A stretch of 32,616 nucleotides of DNA, from positions 1-32,616 of the forward strand of contig JAADFK010000028.1 of NCBI GenBank assembly GCA_013152925.1, in the 5' to 3' direction. This document shows positions 4,841 through 19,806 of the stretch, piece by piece. The position numbers and the translations under genes were made by a program. Each line of letters begins with the position of its first letter. Within the stretch, counting starts at the first letter, position 1. The DNA is from Acidobacteriota bacterium. Its GTDB lineage: Bacteria; Acidobacteriota; Thermoanaerobaculia; Thermoanaerobaculales; Sulfomarinibacteraceae. Under the pieces are notes generated by a model that saw nothing but the letters and a program-made list of their open reading frames with translations, ran no database searches and was not told the origin of the DNA.

Positions 4841-7108
4841 TCAGAACGTCTGGCCGAGGAAGAAGTAGTACTGGTTGCGACCGCCTTCCCCCCAACCGAC
4901 GGCCAGGTAGAGGGGCCCCAGGACGCTGTCGACACCCAGGTAGAGTGAGCCCGCCGTGTGGAGGGCCTCCCAGCCCAGAGGTGTGTCCAGAACGACGGCA
5001 TTGCCGGTTTCCAGGGAGACGCCCAGGTACACGGGCATGGACAGGAACCCCGAGACGTCGTTCATCCGCCGGCGGATGTTGAGGCTCCCGAAGGCGACGC
5101 GGCCGCCGATGAGCTCGTCCGGGAAATAGCCGGAGAGCCGGAGGAAACCGCCCAGCGAGTACAGCGACACCGGGTTGCTGTTGGGGTGATCCATGTCGGT
5201 GTCCCCCAGGATCGTGGTGGCCTCGACGGTCAGCCTCCCGAAGGTGAAGGCGCCCCGCGCCCTGAGGGATTCCGCCATGTAGTTTTCCTCGCCACCGAGA
5301 GCGGTCAGCGATTGCAGGAGCTCCGCCCGGACCTGGAACCCTTTCCGGGGGAAAACCAGCCGGTCGGCGGTGTCCACGTTGAGCTGGAAACGGGCGGCCC
5401 CGACATCGGCCTTCGCGTGCGGGAGAATCGGAAGACCGACCAGGAGATCGCCGCGTGAGGTGCCGGCAAAGGCGCCGAGGCGGAGCTCCGCCCAGTTGCC
5501 CAGGACCCGGCCCATGTCAACGCCGATCGCCGCATCCTTGATGCGGTAGGTGAAGAGCTCTCGGCCATCGGCAACCACGTTGTAGTTGTTCTGCTCGGCA
5601 AAGACATAGGGCGAGACGAACCAATTCATCCCGCCGTCCAGGGGCTGGTACAGCTCCGCCCGGATCTTGGGGTGCGACCCGACGTTGAGGTCCAGCCGGT
5701 ACTCACCCCCGAGACGGTTGATCAGGAACCGCGTGTACCGCACGCCGAGGTTGAACTTGGCCTGCCTGCCGATGTCCGATTCCAGGCCCAGGGCGAAACG
5801 CACCATGCCGGTCCCCAGGCTGCTCTCGCGGGTCCTGACAGTCAAGATCGTCTTCCCGTTCTTCTGGTTCAGGTCGTAGTCGGCGAGATCGAACACGCCG
5901 AGCCCGTAGATGTCCTGGAGGTCGACGGCCAGCTGCCGGGAGTCCAGGGACTGGCCGGGCTTCACATGGAGGTGGTCGGCGATCACCCTGTTGCGCAATC
6001 GGCTGTCATTGACCAGCTTGATCTCATCGACGACCGGCCCGGGCCCGCAGCCCACCCGGCGCCCCCTCCGCTGCTTCCACCGCTGGTACTCCTGGGGGCT
6101 GAGAGAGTACCGGCGCAATGCGGCGGCCGCGTCTCGGGCGGCCTTCTCACCGTCGAGGACCGCCTCGCGGGCCTTGTCGAAGTCCGCCGAGCTGATGTCC
6201 CCGAGGTCGGGAACGATCAGCACATCGCTCCGTCGGAGGGTCGTGATCTGGGCCTCGGTCGTTCGCCGGGTCAGGAGCGTGGACACCTGATCCAGGATGC
6301 TCAGCGCGGACTTCAGCTTGTCCTCGGAGGCCATGGGCGTGCTGATGTCCACGGCGATGACCACGTCGACGCCCATCTGCCGGGCCACGTCCACGGGCAG
6401 GTTGTCGGCGATGCCGCCGTCGACCAGGAGGTGCTTCCCGATCCGGACGGGTTGGAAGACGCCGGGGATCGACATGCTGGCGCGCATGGCCAGGGCCAGG
6501 TCACCGCTGGAGAGGACAACGGGATCGCCGGTGACGATGTCGGCGGCCACGCAGCGGAATGGCGTGGGGAGCTCGTCGAAGCTCCGGACGCAGGCGACGG
6601 GAAGGGTGAAGGTCCGCAACAGGTGGGTTATGGTCTGGCCCTGGACGGCCCCCTTGGGGATGAGCAACTTGCCCTTGCGTACATGGACGGTGGCCTTGAC
6701 GTAGTAGCCGTTCTCGTCGCTCTTCCTTCGGAAGCTCAGCCGGTTGCGCGGCGGCCTGTCCTTGAAGGCCGCGTTCCAGTCGAGATCGTAGAGAATCTGG
6801 CGGATCTCGTCGGGGCTCTTCCCGCTGGCGTAGAGCCCTCCGACCAGGGCGCCCATGCTCGTGCCCGTGACGACGTCCACGGGGACGCGGAGCTCCTCCA
6901 GGATTTCGAGAACGCCCGCGTGGGCGGCCCCGCGGGCGCCGCCGCCCGACAGCACCAGGCCGATGCGAGGTCGGCGTGGAGGCGTGTCCTTTCCCGCCGT
7001 GCGGCCGGTGACCGGCAGTGCCACGAGGAGGAGTGCGAGGAGGACGGAGGGGCTGCCACGACGGGGGGAGGGCCCGGGCCTTCGCGTGTTCCGCTTGATT
7101 CTCATCAT
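4841..7108 (-). CDS. Patatin-like phospholipase with POTRA and outer-membrane beta-barrel (PlpD-like)
   Basis: A 755-aa protein with a Sec signal (hydrophobic stretch about 20-34), then a patatin domain: oxyanion loop SGGGARG (54-60), nucleophile elbow GTSMG with Ser84, and catalytic Asp230 in DGG (230-232), so the Ser-Asp dyad is complete. Around residues 355-425 there is a POTRA-like segment (DEIKLVNDSRLRN...). The rest looks like a 16-strand Omp85-type barrel and ends in ...YFFLGQTF with a terminal aromatic residue. This is the layout of type Vd secreted phospholipases such as PlpD, which act at or beyond the outer membrane. The natural lipid substrate is unknown. The start is ATGATG without its own Shine-Dalgarno; a 4-codon frame (ATG at 7119) with AGGA 7 nt upstream ends in TGA overlapping this start. 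It has its own promoter at 7154-7182. Confidence 0.93.
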   Translation of the reverse strand: MMRIKRNTRRPGPSPRRGSPSVLLALLLVALPVTGRTAGKDTPPRRPRIGLVLSGGGARGAAHAGVLEILEELRVPVDVVTGTSMGALVGGLYASGKSPDEIRQILYDLDWNAAFKDRPPRNRLSFRRKSDENGYYVKATVHVRKGKLLIPKGAVQGQTITHLLRTFTLPVACVRSFDELPTPFRCVAADIVTGDPVVLSSGDLALAMRASMSIPGVFQPVRIGKHLLVDGGIADNLPVDVARQMGVDVVIAVDISTPMASEDKLKSALSILDQVSTLLTRRTTEAQITTLRRSDVLIVPDLGDISSADFDKAREAVLDGEKAARDAAAALRRYSLSPQEYQRWKQRRGRRVGCGPGPVVDEIKLVNDSRLRNRVIADHLHVKPGQSLDSRQLAVDLQDIYGLGVFDLADYDLNQKNGKTILTVRTRESSLGTGMVRFALGLESDIGRQAKFNLGVRYTRFLINRLGGEYRLDLNVGSHPKIRAELYQPLDGGMNWFVSPYVFAEQNNYNVVADGRELFTYRIKDAAIGVDMGRVLGNWAELRLGAFAGTSRGDLLVGLPILPHAKADVGAARFQLNVDTADRLVFPRKGFQVRAELLQSLTALGGEENYMAESLRARGAFTFGRLTVEATTILGDTDMDHPNSNPVSLYSLGGFLRLSGYFPDELIGGRVAFGSLNIRRRMNDVSGFLSMPVYLGVSLETGNAVVLDTPLGWEALHTAGSLYLGVDSVLGPLYLAVGWGEGGRNQYYFFLGQTF

Positions 7109-13547: not shown

Positions 13548-14726
13548 ATGACGTTGAACCGTTTCCATCGTACGATGATCTCCCTTCTGTGCGGCCTGGT
13601 GCTGCTGAGCCCGGCGGCCGCCGTCTTCGGGCAGGAGACCGCTCAGAAGACAGCGCCGGCAACCTCCGCGGCGCCGCCGGCCGATGCCGGGAGCTCCAAG
13701 GTGGTTGCCACGTACTCCCTGGGCGAGATCACCCAGGCGGAGGTCGATCGCCTGATCGGCGTCCAGCTGGCCCGGCTCGCCATGCAGCGCTACGAGTTGG
13801 AGACCCGGACAATCCGCCAGATGGTCTCCGAACGCCTCCTCAGGGCCCAGGCGCTCAAGGAAGGGATGACCCGCGACCAGTTCTACGATAGGTACGTCAC
13901 GGCCCGGATCACGGAGCCCACGGACGCCCAGGTGGAACAGGTGATGAAGCAGTACAGGTCGCAGCTTCCCAAGGACGACGGCGACGCGCGCAAGCTGGTC
14001 CGCCAGGCGCTCAAGGACCGCCAGAAGCAACGGTTGGAGAAGGCCCTGGAGGCGAGCTTGCTCAGGGGCGCCAATCTTCAGATCACGGTGGAGGAGCCGC
14101 GTTTCCCGGTGAGGGTCGCCGCGGACGATCCGGTCCGGGGTCCTGCTGACGCGCCGGTTACCATCGTCGAGTTCTCCGACTTCCAGTGCCCCTTCTGTTC
14201 GCGGGTGCAGACAACGCTGCACAGGATCATGGAGACCTACCCGGCGCAGGTGCGGATCGTCTTCAAGAACATGCCGGGTCAGCGTCACGACCGCGCGAAG
14301 CCGGCCGCCGAGGCGGCCATGTGCGCGGGCCGTCAGGGCAAGTTCTGGGAGATGCACGACTGGCTCTACACTCACCAGAAGACATTGGACGACGACTCCC
14401 TGAAGGCGGAGGCCAAGGAGCTGGGTCTCGACATGGACGCCTTTGCCACCTGCACCTCCAAGCACCAGACCATGGCGCAGGTCGAAGCCGGCCTCAAGGA
14501 GGCCCGCGAGCTCGGTCTCAACGGAACGCCCATCTTCTTCGTCAACGGCAGGATGATCCGAGGGGCGCAACCCTTCGGTGTGTTCGACGATGCCATCCGT
14601 TCGGAATTGAAGCGGCTGGGAATCGCGGCGCCTCCCACGGCGCCGGCCGTCCGCGAGGCCTCGAAGCCGCCGGTGACGGGTCCGGCGGGTAAGCCCGTTG
14701 GAGCCGGCACCACCAAGAAGGACTGA
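13548..14726 (+). CDS. Periplasmic DsbA-like thiol:disulfide oxidoreductase with SurA-like N-terminal region
   Basis: A 392-aa exported protein. The signal peptide covers about residues 1-29 (hydrophobic ISLLCGLVLLSPAAAVFG). Residues about 52-185 are charged and helical and resemble the N-terminal region of SurA-type chaperones, without a parvulin domain. Residues about 195-360 form a DsbA/thioredoxin_4 domain with the redox pair Cys214-Pro-Phe-Cys217 (FQCPFC) and cis-Pro328 in NGTPIFFVNG. The C-terminal tail is rich in Pro, Ala and Lys. It probably oxidises or isomerises cysteines in exported proteins. AGGAGG at 13536-13541 supports the start. It is divergent from the bd oxidase operon, whose CydDC exporter is also tied to periplasmic redox. 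A DsbB-type partner is not in the window. Confidence 0.9.
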   Translation: MTLNRFHRTMISLLCGLVLLSPAAAVFGQETAQKTAPATSAAPPADAGSSKVVATYSLGEITQAEVDRLIGVQLARLAMQRYELETRTIRQMVSERLLRAQALKEGMTRDQFYDRYVTARITEPTDAQVEQVMKQYRSQLPKDDGDARKLVRQALKDRQKQRLEKALEASLLRGANLQITVEEPRFPVRVAADDPVRGPADAPVTIVEFSDFQCPFCSRVQTTLHRIMETYPAQVRIVFKNMPGQRHDRAKPAAEAAMCAGRQGKFWEMHDWLYTHQKTLDDDSLKAEAKELGLDMDAFATCTSKHQTMAQVEAGLKEARELGLNGTPIFFVNGRMIRGAQPFGVFDDAIRSELKRLGIAAPPTAPAVREASKPPVTGPAGKPVGAGTTKKD

Positions 14727-16680: not shown

Positions 16681-16723
16681 CGGCGCCGGTGAGGTCACGC
16701 GACGGTGCGAGGAGGGGGTTTTG

Positions 16724-17476
16724 GTGGAGAACGTACGTGAAGAGTTGATCCTGATGATCCGGCTGCAAAGGATTTACGACCGTATTTCCGAGGCGATCAC
16801 CGAGCAGAGGACGCCGCCCGAAGACGTGCGGCAACTCGCCGAGGAGAATCGGCGCCGGCAGCTGGAGCTGGAGGAGCTGCAGGATCGCATGGAGGGGCTG
16901 GAGGCGGAGCTCCAGGAGGTCAACCGGGCCCAGGAGGAATCCCGCATGGAGCTGGAGCACTTCCAGCGTCAGAAGGGCATGGTGACCAACGAGCGGGAGT
17001 TCACCGCCGTCATCAATGAGATCGATTTCGCCACCCAGGCCCTGGAGAAGGCGACGGTGCGGCGTCAGGAGATCGAGGAGGGGATCGAAGCCCTGAGCTC
17101 CGAGATCGAGGAGCGGCGGAAGGCGCGCCCCGAGGAGGAAGATGCCCACCGGGATGTGACGGAGCGTTGGGAACACCGCCGCGCCAAGCTGACCAAGGAG
17201 ATTCACGAGTTGGCTGCCGAGGCGCGCCGGCTGGAGGAACAGCTGCAGCCCGCCAACCGTTCCCGCTTCTTGCGACTCCTCAAGAGCAAGCACGGCACGG
17301 CTCTGGCGCCGGCCATCGAGGGCTCGTGCTCGCTGTGCCACTTCGCACTGAGGCCCCATCTCCAGCAGCGGGTCCGTCGTGCCGAGGAGATCATTGCGTG
17401 CGAGCACTGTTACCGGATTCTCTACATGCCGGAGCTCGAGAACGAGGCCGGTCCAGGGGAGGATGGCCGGGGATGA
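16724..17476 (+). CDS. C4-type zinc-ribbon coiled-coil protein (DUF164/CdsZ-like)
   Basis: A cytoplasmic protein of 250 aa. Residues about 1-180 are a long charged coiled coil (repeated EEL, LEAEL, IEALSSEIEE patterns), followed by a C-terminal zinc ribbon with Cys202-x-x-Cys205 (CSLCH) and Cys226-x-x-Cys229 (CEHCYRILY). This is the layout of the widespread bacterial C4 zinc-ribbon family. Its biochemical role is poorly settled; links to RNA and to secretion have been proposed. GTG 16724 is chosen over TTG 16721 because AGGAGG at 16710-16715 is 8 nt away. No terminator separates it from the tRNA that ends at 16680, and yggS follows after 24 nt, so tRNA, zinc-ribbon gene, yggS and yggT probably form one transcript. 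Confidence 0.88.
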   Translation: MENVREELILMIRLQRIYDRISEAITEQRTPPEDVRQLAEENRRRQLELEELQDRMEGLEAELQEVNRAQEESRMELEHFQRQKGMVTNEREFTAVINEIDFATQALEKATVRRQEIEEGIEALSSEIEERRKARPEEEDAHRDVTERWEHRRAKLTKEIHELAAEARRLEEQLQPANRSRFLRLLKSKHGTALAPAIEGSCSLCHFALRPHLQQRVRRAEEIIACEHCYRILYMPELENEAGPGEDGRG

Positions 17477-17500: not shown

Positions 17501-18196
17501 ATGACGCCGGACCTTGCTGAGCGCCTCTCCCTGGTGCGGCGGAGGATTGAAGCGGCCCTCGAACGATCCGGACGGCCTCCGGGTTCGGTGACCCTGATCG
17601 CCGTTGGCAAGACGCAGCCCGCCGAAACCGTGGCATTGGCGGTCCGTGCCGGCGCCACCGACGTGGGGGAAAACCGCGTTCAGGAAGCGGCGTCCAAGAA
17701 ACCTGGCGTTCCGCCCGCCACCTGGCACCTGATCGGCCCGCTGCAGCGCAACAAGGCCCGGCTGGCGCTGGAGACATTCGACGTCATTCACACGGTCGAC
17801 CGGATGCGGCTCGTGGAGCGCCTTCAGCTGCTCCTCGAGGAGCACTGGCCGGGCCGGGTGCTCCCCGTGTTTCTCGAGGTCAACATTGCGGTCGAGCCCC
17901 AGAAGGCCGGCGTCTCGCCGGACCATGCCGGGGACCTGGCCCGTGAGGTCGCGGGAGCGCCCTCCCTGGAGCTGCTGGGCCTGATGAGCATTCCACCCTT
18001 CGTGGACAGCCCCGAGGCGGCGAGACCCCATTTCCGCAGGCTGGTCCGCCTGAGGGGGGAGCTGGAGCAGGATCTCGGGCGGCGTCTGCCCGGCCTCTCC
18101 ATGGGCATGAGCCACGACTATGAAGTGGCCATCGAGGAGGGGGCCACCCACGTGCGGGTGGGAACGGCCATCTTCGGAGCGCGGAGGGCGCCGTGA
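17501..18196 (+). CDS. yggS: YggS/PROSC family PLP-homeostasis protein
   Basis: A 231-aa single-domain TIM-barrel protein that binds pyridoxal phosphate and takes part in PLP and amino-acid homeostasis without a known catalytic reaction. The PLP lysine is Lys37 in LIAVGKTQP. Other family blocks are GENRVQEA, WHLIGPLQRNK, FLEVNIAVEPQKAG, LLGLMSIPPF and the C-terminal SMGMSHDYEVAIEEGATHVRVGTAIFG region (SMGMSHDYE quoted as the phosphate-binding part). It overlaps yggT by 4 nt (GTGA). This yggS-yggT pairing is common in bacteria and suggests coupled translation. Confidence 0.95.
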   Translation: MTPDLAERLSLVRRRIEAALERSGRPPGSVTLIAVGKTQPAETVALAVRAGATDVGENRVQEAASKKPGVPPATWHLIGPLQRNKARLALETFDVIHTVDRMRLVERLQLLLEEHWPGRVLPVFLEVNIAVEPQKAGVSPDHAGDLAREVAGAPSLELLGLMSIPPFVDSPEAARPHFRRLVRLRGELEQDLGRRLPGLSMGMSHDYEVAIEEGATHVRVGTAIFGARRAP

Positions 18197-18561: not shown

Positions 18562-19806
18562 ATGAAAAGGCGTGAGGTTGACGGACCGGCTCGTGTGGAT
18601 CCCCAGGCCGAGGTCGAGGTCCTGCGGCGGGCCGCCGAGGCTGCGCCGCAATGTATCGACTTCCTCCGTGATCTGGTGACGATTCCTTCGCCCTCCGGGG
18701 CGGAACGTCTTGCCTGCGAGCACGTGGCCCGGGAGATGGAACGTCTGGGCTACGACGAGGTCCACGTGGACGGCATGGGCAACGTGCTGGGCCGTATCGG
18801 GAACGGTCCGCGCGTGATTGCCTTCGATGCGCACGTGGACACCGTCGGCATCAGCAACCCGACGCAGTGGAAGGTCGATCCCTTCGGTGGGAGCATCACG
18901 GGTGGCGTTCTTCACGGGCGGGGTGCGTCGGATCAGAAGGGTGGTCTGGCCGCCATCGTCCACGGGGCGGCGATCCTGAGGCACGTGGGGCTTCCCGAGG
19001 ATGTGACGGTCTGGGTGACCGCCACGGTCAACGGTGAGGATTGCGTCGGTCTGGCGTGGCAGTACATCATCAACGAGTCCGGCCTCAAACCCGAGGCCGT
19101 GGTCATCGCCATGCCCTCGCACCTGGGCGTGTGCTTCGGTCAGCGTGGGCGCGTGGAGATCCGGCTGACCACCTATGGCGTGGGTGCCCACGGCGCCCAG
19201 CCGGAGCGGGGCGCCAACGCCATCTACGCCATGGCGCCCATCGTCCAGGGCATCGAGCGGCTCCACGGCCGCCTGAAGAAGTCGCACCCACGCCTGGGCA
19301 AGGGGTCCATCGCCGTCACCGGCATCTCCTCCCAGTCGGCCTCCCTGACGGCCATCCCCGACGAGTGCACCATCTACCTGGACCGGCGGATCACCATCGG
19401 TGAGACCCGGGAAGCCGCTCTGGCCGAGCTCGAGGGCCTGCCTGCCGTGCAGGCCGTCGATGCCGTGTTCGATGTGTTGCACTACGAGAAGCCGTCCTGG
19501 AAGGGTCTGAGCTACCCGACTGAGAAGTGCTTCCCCGCCTGGGAAACCCCGGAAGACAGCCCGGCCGTGCGAGCGGCCCTGGCCACCGCGGCCAACGTCC
19601 TGGGCCGCAAGCCTCGCATCCACCGGTCGAACTTCTCGTCCAACGCCTGCACCACCGCTGGCATGTTCGGCATCCCAACGGTCGGTTTCGGGCCTGCCGA
19701 CGAGGTCCATTCGCACTCGGTCAACGACCAGATTCCCCTGGTCCAGCTTCAGCCGGCCATGGCGTTCTACGCGCTCTTCCCATCGTTCTACCTCAAGGCG
19801 GAGTGA
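18562..19806 (+). CDS. M20-family hydrolase homologue, YgeY-like, with altered active site
   Basis: A 414-aa cytoplasmic protein, collinear over its length with E. coli YgeY (M20 metallohydrolase superfamily), whose substrate is not established. Kept metal ligands: His91 (AHVDTV), Asp124 (GRGASDQKGG), Glu159 and His385 (HSHSVND). His210 in the dimerisation domain is also kept. Two positions differ. Where YgeY has EEDCDG this protein has GEDCVG, so the general-base Glu is Gly158. Where YgeY has the TEPT metal ligand it has AMPSH, so that Glu is Met184. Either the activity is lost or the chemistry has changed. The YgeY resemblance and alignment are from memory. No Shine-Dalgarno; a -10-like box ends 6 nt before the ATG. 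Convergent with pyk, 11 nt apart. Confidence 0.85.
   Translation: MKRREVDGPARVDPQAEVEVLRRAAEAAPQCIDFLRDLVTIPSPSGAERLACEHVAREMERLGYDEVHVDGMGNVLGRIGNGPRVIAFDAHVDTVGISNPTQWKVDPFGGSITGGVLHGRGASDQKGGLAAIVHGAAILRHVGLPEDVTVWVTATVNGEDCVGLAWQYIINESGLKPEAVVIAMPSHLGVCFGQRGRVEIRLTTYGVGAHGAQPERGANAIYAMAPIVQGIERLHGRLKKSHPRLGKGSIAVTGISSQSASLTAIPDECTIYLDRRITIGETREAALAELEGLPAVQAVDAVFDVLHYEKPSWKGLSYPTEKCFPAWETPEDSPAVRAALATAANVLGRKPRIHRSNFSSNACTTAGMFGIPTVGFGPADEVHSHSVNDQIPLVQLQPAMAFYALFPSFYLKAE

Follow-up and report, generated by a model that had tools for sequence, protein, structure and literature searches.

M20 metallohydrolases usually hold two metals, and a Glu deprotonates the water that bridges them. In E. 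coli ArgE, this general base is E144. One report on E. coli ArgE describes Zn1 as held by H80, D112 and E169 and Zn2 by D112, E145 and H355, with Zn1 occupied in mono- and di-zinc structures alike, and places E144 in the substrate-binding set (PMC11270798). According to a second report, the reductive degradation of uric acid involves E. coli YgeY (b2872; NF009555/TIGR03526), which acts on albizziin at its ureido group, and albizziin was converted to pyruvate by YgeY and YgeX in an assay that contained CoCl2 (PMC12507026). A further paper notes disagreement over the order of the two ureido cleavages (PMC12990295).

A YgeY-type protein with an incomplete M20 catalytic set

We identified a YgeY-type M20 protein in the window (the whole stretch of DNA analysed, 32,616 nucleotides), which belongs to a genome of 3.67 Mb in 237 contigs. 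The gene runs uninterrupted from ATG to TGA (Table 1). Its product contains the M20 metallohydrolase domain pair, catalytic and dimerisation, as indicated by fold search and by Pfam matches to Peptidase_M20 (Pfam accession PF01546, 76.7 bits) and M20_dimer (Pfam accession PF07687, 61.9 bits). The best NCBIfam model is that of the YgeY family (NF009555), which the protein passes with 452.6 bits over residues 19-412 (cut-off 321). An AlphaFold2 model built from a 7-row alignment reached a pLDDT of 84.5 and a pTM of 0.85 (a Clostridium relative was modelled with a pLDDT of 80.9). The nearest solved folds are DapE 5vo3 (Z 35.6), 7uoi (35.4), 3pfo (35.4) and 5-nitroanthranilate aminohydrolase (34.9), Z values that differ by at most 1 being counted as tied.

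To assign residues, we aligned the 18 variants jointly with 57 canonical YgeYs, 30 relatives of the ArgE/DapE type, and ArgE and DapE of E. coli. ArgE E144, E145 and E169 correspond to G158, E159 and M184 of the window protein, and H80, D112, H195 and H355 to H91, D124, H210 and H385. The protein thus has four of the five M20 metal ligands and lacks the Glu base, and at the two positions (base and Zn1 ligand) where all 59 canonical NF009555 members have Glu it has G158 and M184. These results bear out the original prediction of a YgeY-like M20 protein in a clean frame, with Gly158 (codon GGT) and Met184 (codon ATG) alongside a retained His91, Asp124, Glu159, His210 and His385; the roles that it gave to these residues are correct in the ArgE-anchored alignment.

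Table 1. Genes and codons of the variant locus, with positions in the window
Feature	Positions	Strand	Basis
C4 zinc-ribbon protein; upstream neighbour here and in 13/17 other variant loci	16721..17476	+	PF02591
YggS-type PLP-binding protein; upstream neighbour here and in 13/17 other variant loci	17501..18196	+	PF01168
YggT-family membrane protein; separates the variant gene from yggS in the window, L048 and L058	18193..18492	+	PF02325
Variant YgeY-type M20 protein, 414 aa; catalytic and M20 dimerisation domains	18562..19806	+	Pfam, NCBIfam, AF2
Codon 91, His; Zn1 ligand equivalent (ArgE H80), kept 18/18	18832..18834	+	joint alignment
Codon 124, Asp; bridging ligand equivalent (ArgE D112), kept 18/18	18931..18933	+	joint alignment
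Codon 158 (GGT), Gly; general-base position (ArgE E144)	19033..19035	+	joint alignment
Codon 159, Glu; Zn2 ligand equivalent (ArgE E145), kept 18/18	19036..19038	+	joint alignment
Codon 184 (ATG), Met; Zn1-ligand position (ArgE E169)	19111..19113	+	joint alignment
Codon 187, His; His 15 and Arg 1 (L026) in Gly/Ser158 members, Gly in both Glu158 members	19120..19122	+	
Codon 191, Cys; invariant 18/18 in the clade; canonical Tyr 49/59, Cys 0	19132..19134	+	
Codon 210, His; dimer-domain substrate His equivalent (ArgE H195), kept 18/18	19189..19191	+	joint alignment
Codon 363, Cys; invariant 18/18 in the clade; canonical Val/Ile/Thr in the 58 rows reaching it	19648..19650	+	
Codon 385, His; Zn2 ligand equivalent (ArgE H355), kept in 17/17 readable	19714..19716	+	joint alignment

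Distribution and conservation of the variant clade

The variant gene is found, at one copy per genome, in 18 of the 20 genomes of the window's Thermoanaerobaculia-type family. It was not seen beyond this family in a search of the class (148 genomes, E 1e-60) or of the phylum (396 genomes, E 1e-100), residues 158 and 184 being inspected in all matches listed. In the two remaining family genomes (loci L107 and L108), the contigs stop 53 and 37 bases past the yggS match; absence of the gene is not established there, because the contigs terminate just where it would begin. A pattern scan of named genomes returned three other YgeY-like loci and four variants (L011, L012, L014 and L017, from Acidobacteria or Thermoanaerobaculales/Thermoanaerobaculia), which were counted once.

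We extracted 78 YgeY-type sequences, 18 of them variants. The other 60 comprise 56 acidobacterial sequences, E. coli, a Clostridium, an Armatimonadetes MAG and L010 (Clostridium bovifaecis; Lys158, Glu184), which has an interrupted frame and was removed before counting to leave 59 canonical sequences. In L010, this ygeY relative was noted around positions 4986-5555. In a tree of 75 rows (L010, L077 and L078 omitted), the 18 variants group on a single, long-stemmed branch (stem 0.75; support 100/100). This branch adjoins L028, L029, L041 and L042, a join supported at 94/82, and it retains 100% SH-aLRT in a control tree built without the active-site loops.

Separately, 12 of the 20 family genomes (L067-L078) also carry a canonical-type YgeY, which belongs to a distinct subgroup and is 43-48% identical to the window protein. 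The window's own genome has no second match at E 1e-60. It does contain a partial M20 match on another contig (42% over residues 29-132) that adjoins a sequence resembling acetylglutamate kinase by eye and is perhaps the genome's ArgE-type deacylase.

Canonical YgeYs have Glu at 158 and at 184 (59/59 each), and the ArgE/DapE-type relatives have Glu at 158 (30/30) and always an acidic residue at 184 (E 22, D 8). Variants instead have Met (16) or Leu (2; L023 and L024) at 184, a difference of 18/18 from 59/59 that is beyond chance. At 158 they have Gly (15), Ser (1) or Glu (2; L022 and L025). The check that had been proposed, conservation of Gly158 and Met184 among homologues, therefore yields a clade-wide variant present in 18 of 20 family genomes. 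The original claim that base and metal ligand are both replaced stands across the clade for the ligand (18/18) but is not universal for the base, the loss of which is inessential to the clade's function because L022 and L025 have Glu158.

Other parts of the site are conserved. H91, D93, D124, E159, H210 and R276 are kept in 18/18 variants, and all 17 sequences that extend to H385 have it. Among the 20 pairs nearest to each other by dN, Nei-Gojobori omega spans 0.075-0.243 (dS is saturated in several), and the variant gene is under purifying selection. Sequence decay and assembly error are ruled out, since 18 genomes share the substitution and omega stays well under 1; substitution in an intact frame, rather than decay, had been the earlier reading.

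Canonical YgeY has 65 positions with conservation of 95% or higher, of which the clade keeps 51 and has lost 14. Nine of the 14 lost positions fall in four active-site loops (around the base, the Zn1 ligand, the FSTNG segment and His385), whereas the kept positions divide into 10 in the loops and 41 outside; the Fisher one-sided p of 0.002 for this enrichment is descriptive only and is no test, because the loops were drawn after the list of lost positions had been seen. Eight of 10 clade-specific replacements (near-invariant in the variants, with another residue in at least 85% of canonical sequences) also lie inside the four loops. Beyond 158 and 184, active-site-loop changes include Y191C, W356S, T360S, V363C, T186S and D162V. 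Ser186, Cys191, Ser356, Ser360 and Cys363 have become invariant in loops that carry catalytic residues, as has Ala326 outside them. As read from the sequences, this pattern of losses and new invariants is remodelling rather than erosion. Within the clade, the most parsimonious history on the control tree takes two changes each at positions 158 and 187 and a single change at 184; positions 191, 360 and 363 need none. Given one change at 184 against two at 158, the loss of the metal ligand most likely came with the clade's origin, and position 158 has varied.

Gene neighbourhood and relation to uric acid degradation

Genes for a zinc-ribbon protein and for a PF01168 protein that we take to be YggS precede the variant gene in 14 of 18 loci. 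Outside the window, a gene named by eye as rpoD lies further upstream in 11 of the variant loci with this arrangement, and L053 has a Pfam-tested dnaG further upstream. The arrangement is missing around the variant gene in four genomes (G106, G105, G099 and G095): yggS is located elsewhere in G099 and G105 and on another contig in G095, and was not found in G106 at E 1e-20. G105 (L109, L110; L062) contains two separate zinc-ribbon/yggS/yggT loci, and its variant gene sits apart from both, beside a gene that by eye looks RsgA-like. A long open frame in G097 was considered as a YggS-variant fusion and rejected, as the yggS match maps upstream, to different coordinates, and the additional frame is unlike YggS. 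Elsewhere in the window, positions 13548-14726 encode a DsbA-like thioredoxin domain fused to about 190 N-terminal residues that have no Pfam match.

Homologues of the uricolytic genes used as a membership criterion (ygeW, ygfK, ssnA, ygeX and hyuA) were not found near the 18 variant loci at E 1e-10, on contigs from 3.8 kb; several of these contigs are short, and missing neighbours are weak evidence there. By position at least, the variant gene has left the uric acid cluster. At the canonical sister loci L064-L066, a YgeW homologue (57-59%) adjoins ygeY in 3/3, 2/3 also have a homologue of YgfK residues 1-400 (40-41%), and L066 also has YqeA, SsnA and XdhD matches.

Within the family, a homologue of E. 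coli YgeX was identified in one of 20 genomes (G105) at E 1e-20. SsnA-like proteins (35-40% identity) occur in 15 of 20, which makes a purine-type pathway elsewhere in some family genomes possible; the window's genome has only a 26% match. A related pathway may persist in some family genomes, together with their other YgeY copy. In G106, 1.6 kb separates an SsnA-like gene (37%) from the second, canonical-type YgeY (L067, contig C5). YgeX was not found in G106, and the pair perhaps belongs to a variant purine-type pathway.

Candidate functions and comparison with known systems

The explanation that we favour, and to which we give about an even chance, is that, in the ancestor of one Thermoanaerobaculia-type family, a metallohydrolase of the YgeY type became separated from the uric-acid-degradation cluster and had its active site remodelled for a new role. 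The variant protein probably does a new job. In the sequences, the Zn1-ligand Glu has given way to Met or Leu, and the base Glu is lacking in 16 of the 18 variants. What remains of the metal site is a complete Zn2 ligand set (D124, E159 and H385) together with H91. Met is not required as a ligand, because L023 and L024 have Leu184, and its dispensability suggests that site 1 was lost rather than converted. The protein would then bind one catalytic metal at most; site 2 would hold it, and H91 would be an additional or second-shell ligand. The usual two-metal scheme is not available to a protein in which Glu158 and Glu184 are absent, and canonical Glu-base hydrolysis of albizziin or similar ureido or amide substrates would be impossible. 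An amino-acid-like ligand may still be bound between the metal, His210 and Arg276.

More specifically, and tentatively, we propose a one-metal M20 enzyme in which the Zn1 site has been dismantled, the Zn2 metal is the sole catalytic one, and His187 or a Cys191/Cys363 thiolate would serve as base for a new reaction. All three residues would lie near the metal, judging from their neighbours in the chain. We lean somewhat towards an enzyme with changed one-metal chemistry over a pseudoenzyme devoid of any catalysis, because the clade retains Asp93 and His210 and the new polar and thiol residues are invariant.

A protein that binds a ligand without catalysis would be just as compatible with the kept metal ligands and His210. 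Such a true pseudoenzyme, for which the chances are modest, would hold a small amino acid or a ureido compound between the site-2 metal and His210/Arg276 without turnover, or would bind a partner, perhaps with an effect on what the adjacent YggS does. YggS acts in PLP and amino-acid homeostasis. The freedom of position 158 to be G, S or E is consistent with a binder, as are the two Leu184 members and the adjacency of yggS in 14/18 loci. This adjacency is weak evidence, however, because the yggS locus is generic housekeeping, and yggS is away from the variant gene in three of the other four genomes and was not found (E 1e-20) in the fourth. Retention of Asp93 and other catalytic-machinery residues in 18/18, and the rise of new invariant Cys and Ser residues, also argue against a mere binder; nothing found points specifically to the regulator role that had been suggested. 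At the other extreme, the protein could be an active hydrolase that keeps the ancestral YgeY reaction, with His187 as base or with Cys191, Cys363 or H91 completing the metal site. Gly or Ser at 158 always accompanies His187 (15) or Arg187 (1), and the Glu158 pair has Gly187, which hints at a base swap, but this pattern reflects only about two evolutionary changes. Moreover, with no uricolytic homologue near the variant gene (E 1e-10) and YgeX not found in 19 of 20 family genomes (E 1e-20), the ancestral product would be without a known next enzyme, and we regard retention of the ancestral reaction as very improbable.

A slip in register would alter the assignment itself: Glu159 would be the base, Asp160 (Glu in L026) the Zn2 ligand, and only the Zn1 ligand truly lost, which would leave a hydrolase with one unusual metal site. 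We consider this unlikely. Two sparse MAFFT sets (13 canonical sequences with E. coli ArgE/DapE, with or without 4 variant rows) do place ArgE E144/E145 on 159/160, and phmmer against 7uoi opened a gap at the Glu-pair region. Residue 160 is acidic in 18/18 variants (17 Asp, 1 Glu) and in 52/59 canonical YgeYs. On the other hand, a third sparse run with 6 variant rows only, all three MAFFT modes applied to the 57 canonical sequences and 30 relatives without variants, and the joint alignment agree on 158/159, as does a profile alignment to H. influenzae DapE (5vo3). The variant-free alignments set E. coli YgeY E148/E149/E174 on ArgE E144/E145/E169. Canonical YgeYs have invariant Glu158 and Glu159 (59/59), while residue 160 varies (A, W, E or P in 8/59; non-acidic in 7/59, with A 5, W 1 and P 1), which also speaks for 158/159 as the functional pair. 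In this register Glu159 retains its own role, and the modelled strand ends at 157, immediately before 158; a slip would leave the loss of Glu184 unexplained. A shifted alignment, which the original prediction had named as its refutation, is thus confined to two of three sparse sets that are off by one, and the larger alignments settle on 158/159. Five canonical-type YgeYs (L038, L039, L079, L080 and L081) read EEAC rather than EEDC, so that Asp160 is replaceable with both Glu kept.

If the favoured reading, a YgeY-type protein remodelled for a new role, is right, a gene in 18 of 20 family genomes is annotated 'YgeY hydrolase' by profile though it lacks the catalytic set, and reactions are wrongly assigned because NF009555 is passed without that set. 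The natural series E158/M184, G158/M184, S158/M184 and G158/L184 lends itself to exploring the capabilities of an M20 scaffold that has one metal and lacks a Glu base. A one-metal enzyme class, if real, would imply that the product of a core gene in one family of Acidobacteriota carries out a new reaction. Among the matches listed, we found no description of a clade-wide loss of this kind in YgeY in the open literature. Nothing directly on point was found there for M20 pseudoenzymes, the 'M20' matches in one review (PMC11266112) being reference DOIs.

The closest described system is E. coli YgeY, to which the variant is 44% identical over window residues 20-414. The two share the NF009555 assignment and five of seven compared base, ligand and dimer-His positions. 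Unlike YgeY, the variant is without the Glu base, has Met for the Zn1-ligand Glu and replacements of Tyr191, Trp356, Thr360 and Val363, and has no uricolytic homologues nearby (E 1e-10). E. coli ArgE and H. influenzae DapE share the fold (5vo3, Z 35.6), and the equivalents of ArgE H80, D112, E145, H355, H195 and R264 are kept. In contrast, the equivalents of E144 and E169 are absent, and the variant scores 157 bits against the ArgE/DapE subfamily model TIGR01910, under its cut-off of 217.6. A further comparison, by fold alone, is with 5-nitroanthranilate aminohydrolase (PDB 5k8m-5k8p; Z 34.9), which has an M20-like fold and different chemistry and is listed in a 2025 paper among hydrolases thought to use SNAr-type paths (PMC11903332). 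Identity to the variant is only 19-20%, and the substrate class is unrelated. The fold and ancestry of the variant are already known.
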